DNA from: Acidobacteriaceae bacterium
Lineage (GTDB): Bacteria; Acidobacteriota; Terriglobia; Terriglobales; Acidobacteriaceae
DNA: 64,000 nt
Reading direction: 5' to 3'
NCBI GenBank assembly: GCA_027452245.1
Contig: DAIDGW010000124.1
Coordinates: forward strand, 1 to 64,000
Part shown: positions 13,563-51,968 of the stretch, one piece after another
How positions within the stretch are numbered: position 1 is the first letter of the stretch
Layout of the letters: every line of letters begins with the position of its first letter
The notes under the pieces: generated by a model
Seen by the model: only the letters and a program-made list of their open reading frames with translations
Databases searched by the model: none
Told to the model about the DNA's origin: nothing
Made by a program: the position numbers and the translations under genes

Positions 13563-13871
13563 TGGAGCTTCCTTCCTGGATAGATCCAGAGTACTGACCC
13601 GAGACTGCATCGTCAATCATTCCGAAGGTTACCGAGGGACAGGGAGCCATTGCCGATTGTGCGCTTTGGCGATCGCAACATTTCGCCGTTCAGTGAACGA
13701 TTCGCAGTTGCATTCCTGCTAAGCACAAATTGCCAGACATTCGCTGCTCCCATGGCCTTACCCCGGCGCAAGAGACCTGAACAGCCTTTGCATGTGCCCA
13801 GTCATCCTGCCTCAATCCAGCTTCCCGTCGGAATGTACCACTTGTCTCTATTAGCGTGCTGTCACAGGTGT

Positions 13872-14070
13872 ATGTACATCGGCGATACTCGCCTGGGCAC
13901 GGTCGGGCCATCGCCTAAAATGCCATTTGCGGAGGCTGCAAGGCCCCCTGGGACGATCTCGCCCTCACCACTCAGCCCCCTCAGACACACGCCCGAATCG
14001 CTCTAAAGGGCAGCAAGCCCTGCTAGCGTCAGTTCTGTACGATATTGTAATTTACTATCTGTATGTACAT
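13872..14070 (+). repeat. Palindrome-bounded dispersed element, copy A
   Basis: The element is bounded by ATGTACAT at 13872-13879 and at 14063-14070. Internal blocks shared with copy B (51724-51929) occur in the same order and nearly the same spacing: CCTAAAATGCC (13914), TTGCGGAG, AAGGCCCCC, ATCGC.CTA..GGG (13997), GCTAGC.TC, GTACG (14037), and a terminal TATGTACATT-like end. A reading frame starting MPFAEAARPPG at 13920 matches MPIAELLRPPG in copy B but stops after 28 codons. No transposase is present, so it would be non-autonomous if mobile. Confidence 0.7.
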
Positions 14071-14173
14071 TGGTCGATATCTTGTGCGAATTAAGAGACT
14101 TAATGAGCTTCCGGTTTCGTTTTGCATGGCTTTTCGGTGCAGATTACGCCGGGTAAAGCTGGCCCAGGCTCCA

Positions 14174-14255: not shown

Positions 14256-15209
14256 ATGGCTCGCGGCATCACTCCCCGCCAACCCGCCCGCTCCGGCCTG
14301 CAAGATCGTGTGTCCAAGACTGCTCATGTGGAGACGGCCGCCCTCGGCCGCCCGGACCGAGGCAAAGCCGCGGCAGGACCATCATCACGGAAACGAGACA
14401 GCATGGCCGGTGCAGAAGCAGCCGCGAAACGGCAGAAGAATACAGCCCACGGCGACCGCCGCGGGACGTCGCAAATAAGAGCGACAGCTCCGAAAGAGCG
14501 AAAGACGACCGAGGCTTCGCCGGGCACCAGGGGCTACAGTCCCATCGCCCCCGAGCGCGTCACAGAAATTCTGCAACGGCTCGATCAGACCTATCCCGAC
14601 GTGACCTGCGCTCTGACTCACCGCAACGCCTGGGAGTTGCTGGTCGCGACCATCCTTTCGGCCCAATCGACCGACGTCAACGTCAACAAGGTCACGCCGG
14701 AAATTTTCCGTAAATATCCGACGGTGCAGGACTTCGCGGCGTTGCAGCCGGAACAACTCGAGCCCGATGTCCGCTCCACCGGCTTCTTCCGCAACAAATC
14801 CAAGTCCGTGGTTGGCGCGGCCAGGAAGATCGTCTCCGATTTCAGCGGCGAGGTTCCGATGAACATGACCGACCTGCTCACGCTGCCCGGCGTGGCGCGC
14901 AAAACCGCCAACGTGGTGCTGGGTACATGGTTCAAGATCGCCGATGGAGTGGTCGTAGACACCCACGTCACGCGCATCTCGCGCCGCCTCGAACTGACTC
15001 GGGAAAGCGATCCCCAAAAGATTGAACAGGACCTGATGAAGGTCATCCCGCGCGAGAAATGGATCCTGTTCTCGCATCAGATCATCTGGCATGGGCGCAA
15101 GCTCTGCTTCGCCCGCAAGCCTCTGTGCGTCGATTGTCCGCTGGAAAAACTATGCCACGCCGGCGACAAGACCTGGAGCACCGTTGCAATGCACAAAGCG
15201 GCCCAATGA
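14256..15209 (+). CDS. nth: Endonuclease III (DNA glycosylase/AP lyase)
   Basis: Base-excision-repair enzyme removing oxidised pyrimidines. The 317-residue product has a catalytic core from about residue 95: the helix-hairpin-helix LLTLPGVARKTANVVLG with catalytic K216, the catalytic aspartate D235 in VVDTHVTRIS, and a [4Fe-4S] loop C284-x6-C291-x2-C294-x5-C300. The first 90 residues are an added basic, Lys/Arg/Ala/Thr-rich, apparently disordered extension; typical bacterial Nth is about 210-230 residues. The start at 14256 is supported by GGAAAGG five bases upstream, so the extension is probably translated and may help DNA binding. Confidence 0.95.
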   Translation: MARGITPRQPARSGLQDRVSKTAHVETAALGRPDRGKAAAGPSSRKRDSMAGAEAAAKRQKNTAHGDRRGTSQIRATAPKERKTTEASPGTRGYSPIAPERVTEILQRLDQTYPDVTCALTHRNAWELLVATILSAQSTDVNVNKVTPEIFRKYPTVQDFAALQPEQLEPDVRSTGFFRNKSKSVVGAARKIVSDFSGEVPMNMTDLLTLPGVARKTANVVLGTWFKIADGVVVDTHVTRISRRLELTRESDPQKIEQDLMKVIPREKWILFSHQIIWHGRKLCFARKPLCVDCPLEKLCHAGDKTWSTVAMHKAAQ

Positions 15210-49712: not shown

Positions 49713-51671
49713 ATGGACCTGCAGCAGAAAATTCGCACCATCCCGACCGAACCTGGCGTGTATCTCTACAAGAACGCCGAGGGCGAGATCATCTACGTCG
49801 GGAAGGCGAAGAACCTGCGAAGCCGCGTCTCCAGCTATTTTCATGAAGGACGCTGGTCCGACGCCAAGACGGGCACCCTCGTCCGCGAGGCCGTCGATGT
49901 CGATTACATCGTCGTCGCCAACAACAAGGAAGCCCTCGCCCTCGAAAACAACCTGATCAAGCAACGCAAGCCGCGTTTTAACATCCTGTTGCGCGACGAT
50001 AAAACCTATCCCTACGTGAAGTTGACCCTGGCCGAGCGCTTCCCTCGCGTTTACGTCACCCGCCGCCTGCGCAAAGACGGCAGCGCTTATTACGGTCCCT
50101 ACTTCCCCGCGAACCTCGCGTACCGTATCGTCGACCTGGTGCATCGTAACTTTCTGATTCCCTCCTGCAAGGTCGACCTCACGCGCTTTCATCCGCGGCC
50201 CTGTTTGCAGTACTACATCCGCCGCTGCTTAGGCCCGTGCGTTCAGGAACTTACGACTGCCGACGTGTACCAGGAAGCAGTACGCGACGTGAAGATGTTT
50301 CTGGAAGGGCGGCCCACGGACTTGGCGAAATCTCTCCGGGCGCGCATGGAGCAAGCCGCGGAATCGGAAGAGTTTGAACGCGCGGCGCGCTATCGCGATC
50401 TGATCTCGACCGTCGAACAATTGCAGGAGCGCCAGCGCATGGCCGCCGCCGAAGGTGACGACGCCGACGTCTTTGGATATCACTACGAAAATGGCATGCT
50501 GGCTGTGAATCTGTTTCACATGCGGGGCGGCAAGATGGTCGACCGCCGCGAATTCTTCTGGGAGGATCTGCCGGAGTTCGCTTTCCCCGACACCTCTGGC
50601 CGTCCTCCTGAGCCAGGCGAAGGATTAGCGCATCTTCTATGCGACGCCGATAGTGCAAGCGAATCCATAGATCCTGCGGAGCGACGCGATTCACAAAATG
50701 ACAAGAGCAGCCAGCAACTGTTTCATCCCGGAGAGTTTTTCTCGGCGCTGCTCAAGCAGCTTTACATCGGGCAACCGTATGTCCCGCGCAATCTGTACGT
50801 TCCGTTAGATTTCGAAGATCGCGAAGAGCTCGAAGAATTGCTCTCGGAACAGATCGCGGGTACGAACCCGCGTATTGGGCGCGTGCACATCATCGTGCCC
50901 CTGCGCGGCGATAAGCGTTCGCTGATCGATCTCGCGGGCAACAATGCCAAGCAGTCGTACGATCAGCGCTTCCGCGTGCTCAAGCCCAATGCCCGCCGCA
51001 TCCAGGAAGAATTACAGGAAGTGCTGAGTTTGCCGGAACTTCCCAGGCGCATCGAATGCTTCGACATCTCGCACATCCAGGGCGCGGAAACCGTGGCCTC
51101 CATGGTCGTATGGGAAGACGGCAAGATGAAGAAGTCGGATTACCGCAAGTTCATCATCCGCACCGTCGATGGCGTGGATGATTTCGCTTCCATGCGCGAA
51201 GTAGTGACGCGCCGCTACAAGCGCCTGCAGCAGGAAGAAAAGCCGATGCCGAGCCTGGTGCTGATCGATGGAGGACTCGGCCAGCTCCACGCCGCCGCCG
51301 CAGCGCTGGAGTCGATCGAAATCATCAACCAGCCGCTGGCCTCGATTGCGAAGCGGGAAGAGATTCTCTACGTCTATGGGCAAGAGAAAGATCCCATCGC
51401 GCTCGATCATCACTCGCCGGTGCTGCATCTCATTCAAATGATTCGGGATGAGGCGCACCGCTTTGCCGTAACTTTCCATCGCAAGCGCCGGCAGATGCGC
51501 GACCGTTCCACCGAACTGCTGGAAATTCCCGGCGTAGGCGCCAGCACCACCCGCCGCCTGCTGGAACATTTCGGGAGCGTACAGGCGGTGAGGCAGGCGG
51601 ATGCCGCGGCGTTATCGGCGGTCGTCACCCGCACGCAGGCGGAAGCCATCCGCAATCACTTCACTAAGTAA
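49713..51671 (+). CDS. uvrC: UvrABC system protein C
   Basis: Dual-incision nuclease of nucleotide excision repair, 652 residues. Domains in order: GIY-YIG (PTEPGVYLYKNAEGEIIYVG, about 11-90), a Cys-rich Fe-S region (SCKVDLTRFHPRPCLQYYIR, then RCLGPC, 151-176), a UVR motif (RMEQAAESEEFERAARYRDL, 211-230), an RNase H-like nuclease (CFDISHIQGAETVASMVVWE) and C-terminal tandem helix-hairpin-helix (LLEIPGVGASTTRRLLEHFG). Between FFWEDL (286) and FHPGEFFSALLKQLY (337) there is an acidic insertion of about 45 residues that typical UvrC proteins lack. TAGAAT (49688) is a possible -10 element. Confidence 0.96.
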   Translation: MDLQQKIRTIPTEPGVYLYKNAEGEIIYVGKAKNLRSRVSSYFHEGRWSDAKTGTLVREAVDVDYIVVANNKEALALENNLIKQRKPRFNILLRDDKTYPYVKLTLAERFPRVYVTRRLRKDGSAYYGPYFPANLAYRIVDLVHRNFLIPSCKVDLTRFHPRPCLQYYIRRCLGPCVQELTTADVYQEAVRDVKMFLEGRPTDLAKSLRARMEQAAESEEFERAARYRDLISTVEQLQERQRMAAAEGDDADVFGYHYENGMLAVNLFHMRGGKMVDRREFFWEDLPEFAFPDTSGRPPEPGEGLAHLLCDADSASESIDPAERRDSQNDKSSQQLFHPGEFFSALLKQLYIGQPYVPRNLYVPLDFEDREELEELLSEQIAGTNPRIGRVHIIVPLRGDKRSLIDLAGNNAKQSYDQRFRVLKPNARRIQEELQEVLSLPELPRRIECFDISHIQGAETVASMVVWEDGKMKKSDYRKFIIRTVDGVDDFASMREVVTRRYKRLQQEEKPMPSLVLIDGGLGQLHAAAAALESIEIINQPLASIAKREEILYVYGQEKDPIALDHHSPVLHLIQMIRDEAHRFAVTFHRKRRQMRDRSTELLEIPGVGASTTRRLLEHFGSVQAVRQADAAALSAVVTRTQAEAIRNHFTK

Positions 51672-51968
51672 TTGATTCTGCTGATCGTTCGGCATTTGAA
51701 AGGGCTCAGCGTACCGCTATATTTGTACGTACACTGTACTTTTCAGGCCGAGGCGCCACCAGAACCTTGCCTAAAATGCCCATTGCGGAGCTTCTAAGGC
51801 CCCCAGGAGCGACGGGCTCTGGCTCGGCCTTCCCGGAGGTCAAATGCAGCGGCAAATCGCCCTACGGGGCTACAAAGGGGCCTAGCATCGAAAGCGTACG
51901 TCATTATAGCTATAGATATGTATGTACATTAGCTTTTTCTATATGACAGGCAAGGACTTAGCGGGAAA
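51672..51968. other. Intergenic region holding repeat copy B
   Basis: This 297-bp gap between uvrC and the convergent minus-strand gene is largely filled by the palindrome-bounded repeat copy B (51724-51929). No other gene is seen, apart from the short frame inside the repeat. Confidence 0.6.
51724..51929 (+). repeat. Palindrome-bounded dispersed element, copy B
   Basis: The element is bounded by TGTACGTACA (51724-51733) and ATGTACAT (51922-51929). It shares ordered blocks with copy A: CCTAAAATGCC (51770), TTGCGGAG, AAGGCCCCC, ATCGC.CTA..GGG (51856), CTAGC.TC, GTACG (51896). After the left third, the spacing from copy A differs by a constant 7 bp. An internal stem AAGGCC...GGCCTT enclosing CCAGgAGC/GCTCTGG is possible. 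A 57-codon frame opens with MPIAELLRPPGATGSGSAF at 51777. Confidence 0.7.

Follow-up and report, generated by a model that had tools for sequence, protein, structure and literature searches.

The window, by which we mean the whole 64,000-nucleotide stretch of DNA that was analysed, carries two copies of an intergenic element, both on the plus strand and about 38 kb apart, as the initial annotation had claimed. Copy 1 occupies positions 13856 to 14102 (+; 156.3 bits, model positions 1-251) and is followed by an endonuclease III-like gene, nth (14256 to 15209, +; Pfam HhH-GPD). Copy 2 occupies 51711 to 51960 (+; 160.8 bits, model positions 1-251) and lies behind uvrC (49713 to 51671, +; Pfam UvrC domains). 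Extents and scores come from R1, a sequence-only profile of alignment A2, which consists of eight copies from the window genome, the two window copies among them. The places first proposed for the element were right, but measured against this eight-copy profile the proposed bounds were too short by about 15 nt at the 5′ end and about 30 nt at the 3′ end; in both window copies the profile match ends at a conserved ...GACTTA. Comparison of the 14 surrounding window proteins with Pfam found no transposase or integrase near the copies, as had been reported: three proteins had no family and the remainder belonged to other families. The 5′ part of the nth frame contains, at 14420 to 14465 on the minus strand, a near-threshold match to the Acido-Lenti-1 RNA (RF01687; 35.6 bits, gathering threshold 37), seen in locus L043 and converted to window coordinates.

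Pattern matching places a TGTATGTACA box of copy 1 at 13869 to 13878 (+), 5′ of the conserved core at 13902 to 13966 (+), and a second TGTATGTACA box at 14060 to 14069 (+), 191 bp from the first. The core scores 48.7 bits with R2, a core model of 74 positions built from 45 sequences (alignment A3). Copy 2 has the palindrome TGTACGTACA at its 5′ end (51724 to 51733, +), a conserved core at 51758 to 51828 (+; 59.6 bits with R2) and a 3′ TGTATGTACA box at 51919 to 51928 (+), 195 bp from the 5′ palindrome. Read side by side with the copies on contigs C192, C43 and C28, copy 1 also has a 5′ extension (13832 to 13855, +) that it shares with them, with differences; in this stretch CACTTGTCTCTAT is common to all four copies, preceded by ATGTAC in three of them. 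The two stretches are kin, as first supposed: their local alignment score is 77, against a maximum of 45 in 1000 dinucleotide-shuffled pairs. Their description as bounded by palindromes is borne out as well, since TGTAYGTACA has five matches at four sites in the window, every one at an element end, with 0.00 expected from shuffles.

The genome from which the window is taken (G000) comprises 6,231,052 bases in 274 contigs, and blastn with each copy finds the other copy and more. The two loci are far from alone: R1 has 11 matches above 100 bits in this genome, one at 55.6 bits and five at 17-22 bits, and R2 finds 12 core matches. TGTAYGTACA occurs at 22 sites (25 rows, palindromic sites being counted on both strands), 19 of which fall in elements when partial and weakly matching ones are included. 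With the pattern reversed as a control there are still 16 rows; the box by itself is therefore not rare, and what counts is its concentration in the element. Solo excision footprints between the boxes were considered and rejected, the three sites outside elements looking coding on reading. The window-genome copies carry an identical TGTATGTACA box at both ends in direct orientation, and both TGTAYGTACA boxes are exact in seven copies, where their spacing is 191-196 bp. One alignment suggested an internal duplication, with a second core 3′ of the first. This is not borne out: the two core consensuses match no better than shuffles (322 of 2000 reach the score), and with the core model the second site scores no better than E 0.05-0.25, although among single copies one of eight, window copy 2, beats its own 500 shuffles.

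Beyond this genome, R1 matched 11 of the 36 other genomes of the genus at E<=0.01; its matches in G008 and, outside the genus, in G049 and G056 look like chance or coding sequence. R2 matched 69 of 398 genomes of the family at the same threshold. Those matches above about 1e-3 are mostly single per genome and look like chance; at E<=1e-5 there remain 23 of the 398 genomes, 17 of the same genus and six in four other genera. Many of the 23 supplied sequences to R2 and match by construction, while G020, G036, G131, G217 and G406 did not. The weak R2 matches above about 1e-3 and the R1 matches L064-L066, L171, L172 and L174 were judged by eye to be chance or coding and dropped before counting. In a uvrC and nth protein tree of 38 genomes, where support is weak for most inner branches (8 of 35 starred), copies are found chiefly in G002, G004, G007, G012, G017, G019, G020, G022 and G064, and the window genome forms a long branch away from this copy-rich set. 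We refer to these nine genomes plus G323, which is counted with them though outside the tree, as the related group; its genomes have two to nine R2 matches each (E<=0.01). Several species of the genus have no core match with R2, among them G003, G023, G034 and G001, the last of which sits inside the related group, so that any function of the element must be dispensable. Four or more core matches each are present in G000, G002, G004, G012, G017, G019, G064 and G073.

In G073, which belongs to another genus, several copies (L168, L178, L236-L243) have the core preceded by TTCAATGACTTAGC and followed by TGATTGATATT. The outer parts there differ around the same core, from which it follows that ends have been replaced while the core was kept. 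A viral or plasmid origin was rejected: three element patterns had no exact match in IMG/VR, one relative's copy had no blastn match in plasmids and window copy 2 had none in phages. Our full-text literature searches, in a library lacking most subscription journals, turned up no paper that by its title or the opening of its abstract describes the element. The family of composite intergenic DNA elements, roughly 200-250 bases long and carried by soil Acidobacteria, is real and, as far as these searches go, undescribed.

The related-group copies follow one order, GTAC boxes, core, a moderately conserved stretch and one to three direct repeats TCAAYNACTTNCACGAAGNC. Among 41 of the 49 copies, the first repeat, where intact, begins 62-67 bp downstream of the core, and the repeats have a period of 20, or 21 in two copies. 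A two-repeat pattern with at most three mismatches has 55 matches in 10 of 15 genomes, against one for the reversed control; it is absent from G000, G001, G003, G023 and G034. Of these matches, 54 adjoin a core match (at G323:C371 the core reaches only E 0.0014), and at the remaining one, G323:C307, the model finds no core at E<=10, though a degenerate core was read by eye. The core of about 56 bp has dyad symmetry, with the centre TTTCCGG-AG-CCGGAAA and the outer boxes TCGTCGC and GCGACGA (related-group consensus TCGTCGC..GCCnTTTCCGG-AG-CCGGAAAnGGC..GCGACGA). In alignment A4, made of 38 of the 49 related-group copies after eight degenerate or odd ones and three near-duplicates were left out, 52% of cells are complementary at the centre of the dyad compared with a mean of 26% over all centres, a value that 0 of 300 column shuffles reach. 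In the window-genome copies this core is flanked by the two TGTAYGTACA boxes. There the dyad has the same best centre in the eight copies of A2, but 47 of 300 shuffles reach its value, and it is weak in the window copies themselves (13 of 30 positions complementary in copy 1 and 12 of 30 in copy 2). The window-genome subfamily stands apart, with a core identity of 0.71 within it versus 0.61 to other genomes. Two elements behind hemD, L059 (G019) and L071 (G012), carry a GTAC box and additional TAAGTTATTGATAAC-type repeats 3′ of the core; they are possibly intermediate between the two subfamilies.

For an RNA-level role, consensus folding offers little. RNAalifold predicted 0 pairs on the 45 cores of A3, and two pairs without double changes on the 38 longer sequences of A4. 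On the eight window-genome copies of A2 it predicted 29 pairs, three of them with a double change and none of these in the end boxes. The reverse strand forms a three-pair hairpin of -1.2 kcal/mol, which is small yet below all 30 column shuffles (best -0.18), and single sequences have a slight folding advantage over their mononucleotide-shuffled versions (z from -3.6 to -0.05 in 12, with a mean of -1.3). No Rfam family matched the element in the window or, at E<=1, in eight loci. One promoter-like match of 10 of 12 positions lies before copy 2 and one of 9 of 12 in copy 1, where shuffles average 0.3-0.5 per region; neither window element region has a terminator-like site. Protein coding was rejected by eye, as the cores of different copies differ in length by single bases and the variable positions show no codon pattern.

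We determined the orientation of neighbouring genes with a codon-usage gene caller, and no copy overlaps a called gene. Among the 49 upstream genes in the related group, 36 point towards the element, two away, and 11 are untyped. Where both neighbours were typed (27 copies), the arrangement is convergent in 17, tandem-sense in nine, tandem-antisense in one and divergent in none. The 12 copies of the window genome are divided into five convergent, two tandem-sense, one tandem-antisense and three divergent ones, plus one with one side untyped. In the remaining genomes other than G073 (16 copies) there are four convergent, four tandem-sense and four tandem-antisense copies and four that are not fully typed; of the 10 copies in G073, nine have at least one side untyped and one is tandem-antisense. 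The bias towards gene ends is limited to the related group. Upstream genes with a Pfam match are functionally unrelated and include menaquinone synthesis, short-chain dehydrogenase, Rieske oxygenase and UvrC genes, M16 and M28 peptidases, HemD, bactofilin and LpxI, among others.

Flank matches on one or both sides assign 47 of 87 copies to 14 clusters, each comprising 2-7 places and no fewer than two genomes. Many related-group copies occupy one place in 2-7 species, and in the window genome two of the 12, the uvrC copy and a fragment on contig C49, are at places common to other genomes. How many 20-bp repeats a copy carries is tied to its locus (0 of 20000 permutations reach the observed value), as tested on 10 clusters with 34 copies, leaving out the uvrC, hemD, L074 and L050/L173 clusters as well as L068 and L224. 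The number is uniform in seven of the 10; in each of the others a single copy deviates, a degenerate one among five, one among six and one among two. Orthologous copies are also more alike than others, by 0.047 in the core and 0.056 in the 3′ part (46 of 995 pairs), which 0 of 2000 within-genome label shuffles reach for either part. At two loci of G323, L166 and L224, the flanks are 88% identical on both sides with an element at each, L166 lying behind a sugar-epimerase-like gene, which was probably duplicated jointly with the element.

Between species, mean identity is 0.745 in the core versus 0.556 at third codon positions of the upstream gene, 0.67 in the next 90 bp after the core and 0.517 in the 60 bp beyond the element. 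In the 70 bp preceding the core, where the GTAC boxes lie, identity is 0.56, no better than at third codon positions, and shuffled cores align at about 0.5. These means cover 36 of 43 pairs, seven having been dropped where the automatic choice of the upstream ORF failed (amino-acid identity of 0.5 or less); since the pairs depend on one another, no simple error can be attached to the means, and the comparison covers mainly the related group. As core and tail drift more slowly than third codon positions, we infer that purifying selection is likely to act on both at orthologous sites, and not on the 5′ part. Since loci keep their repeat number, gene conversion is a less likely source of the likeness between copies.

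Several sites suggest how the copies came to be where they are. At nth, 29 relatives gave no core match, the window genome being the sole carrier (of 26 regions read, five were shortened by contig ends or gaps; three loci could not be placed). At uvrC, core matches are present in the window genome and in three of 29 relatives (G011, G014, G028), with a weak one of 13.8 bits in G031; a degenerate 5′ part was read by eye in G019 and G031. The mqnA site is filled in five genomes, in one of them by a degenerate copy, and reads as empty in G001, G002, G016 and G023, where the core model gave no match. Filled and empty sites at mqnA and uvrC, at which a target-site duplication might have been read, are too diverged to place both element ends. 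The element was probably mobile in the past. The initial annotation had offered a non-autonomous mobile element as one option; dispersed copies and empty sites agree with this for the past, but no autonomous partner was found and the related-group copies are inherited in place. Taken further, that option would make the family a MITE-like element without host function, its conserved parts being sites needed by a recombinase, with copies that spread in bursts and then decay. Dispersed intergenic copies, the nth loci of the 29 relatives, the filled and empty mqnA sites and the separate window-genome subfamily (0.71 within versus 0.61 outside) all speak for it. However, terminal inverted repeats are absent, the related-group ends differing between GTAC boxes on the 5′ side and 20-bp direct repeats on the 3′ side. 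By eye no transposase was seen among the ORFs within 1.5 kb of the 12 loci of the window genome, some of which were also scanned with Pfam. Nor do 15 genomes hold an autonomous element with the tail repeats, which almost always lie beside cores. A link to IS200-like Y1 transposases was rejected: their genes are present both in genomes that carry the element and in genomes that lack it, and no core, tail or GTAC box lies at 30 of 56 Y1 places. The slow change and locus-specific repeat number at old sites are likewise not what decaying insertions would lead one to expect. We regard this MITE-like reading as a real possibility that falls short of probable. In the window genome, the IS200-like Y1 transposase genes at L259 and L269 (contigs C168 and C27) have very similar GC-rich non-coding flanks; genes and flanks are a separate mobile element of this genome.

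An element with a transcriptional role where the upstream gene ends, whether as a terminator or as the 3′ part of the mRNA, would account for the 36 of 38 typed upstream genes that point towards it and for the 17 convergent and zero divergent arrangements among 27 in the related group. We nevertheless think it unlikely. Neither window region has a terminator-like site and no hairpin is conserved; three of 12 window-genome copies lie between divergent genes and one is tandem-antisense, and tandem-sense and tandem-antisense are equally frequent, four and four, among the 16 copies of the remaining genomes without G073. Moreover, copies that share an orthologous site cannot be counted as independent, and a similar bias would arise if promoters were avoided. 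A structured RNA had also been proposed initially, and a family of sibling small RNAs would fit the sequence conservation, the multiple copies, the promoter-like matches (10 of 12 and 9 of 12) and the reverse-strand hairpin of three pairs that beats all 30 column shuffles. Yet the forward strand has no consensus structure of note, with 0 pairs on 45 cores and two without double changes on 38 sequences, and neither an Rfam match (eight loci, E<=1) nor a terminator was found; such an RNA is very improbable. Of the options in the initial annotation, an array of protein-binding sites agrees best with the dyad core, the rigidly spaced 20-bp direct repeats and the GTAC palindromes. Because of this symmetry, spacing and constraint, we infer from the sequence that the element binds protein. 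Against it, the dyad is not significant in the eight window-genome copies of A2, with only 13 and 12 of 30 positions complementary in the window copies. That both stretches belong to a dispersed, non-coding intergenic element which acts as double-stranded DNA and not as RNA, binds protein, spread anciently and is now mostly resident is a reading to which we give an even chance.

Under the protein-binding reading, one or more proteins would occupy both dyad and repeats, folding the element into a nucleoprotein complex, which in the related group would mostly sit just behind a gene's stop codon. Transposition, or something like it, may have spread the copies long ago, with a separate spread in the window genome's lineage; they would now be mostly resident, kept by selection. 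As a first guess, the complex could serve as a boundary or topological site at gene ends. We put forward, tentatively and with considerable doubt, a more specific form of the idea, a new element of chromosomal architecture: no more than about ten composite sites per chromosome, each made of a dyad core, phased 20-bp repeats and GTAC boxes, which would stay at fixed gene ends while third codon positions drift to near saturation, keep a repeat number of their own at each locus, be read by some protein and be lost as a set in some species. The patchy presence and absence within one genus provides a phyletic profile for finding the cognate protein.

Several known systems invite comparison. ERIC sequences, enterobacterial units of 127 bp, are imperfect palindromes that fold as RNA. 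The present element shares with ERIC, or intergenic repeat units, and with related small mobile sequences a length of 100-250 bp and an intergenic, dispersed and lineage-specific occurrence; it is set apart from ERIC, by description, in that only the core of about 56 bp has dyad symmetry, direct repeats lie on one side alone and no noteworthy RNA folding is conserved. MITEs are short, non-coding and dispersed with empty sites, all of which applies here, but the element lacks terminal inverted repeats and no related transposon was found. Phage attP sites and the ends of complex transposons combine a core dyad with helically spaced arm-type direct repeats. The core dyad and phased direct repeats of the element resemble these in a comparison of how they might work only; unlike them, it has many chromosomal copies kept in place, and no recombinase gene was recognised beside those read. 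The usual view of dispersed repeats in bacteria is that they are mobile elements in decay. Orthologous copies of the present element can be traced across species, and the domestication of such repeats as DNA sites therefore becomes testable. REPs are palindromes of 20-40 bp in high copy, most of them tagged GTAG or CGTC, and REP/BIME with RAYT transposases are dispersed and intergenic with proposed roles at the DNA or RNA level (PMC3733652). Our element is likewise dispersed and intergenic, but it is much longer, with a profile match of about 250 bp, it numbers at most 12 copies in a genome, and 30 of 56 Y1 transposase places show no link to it. Overall, the element is dispersed in the manner of ERIC or BIME repeats, but it shows conservation at the level of double-stranded DNA, and within the related group it is largely resident.
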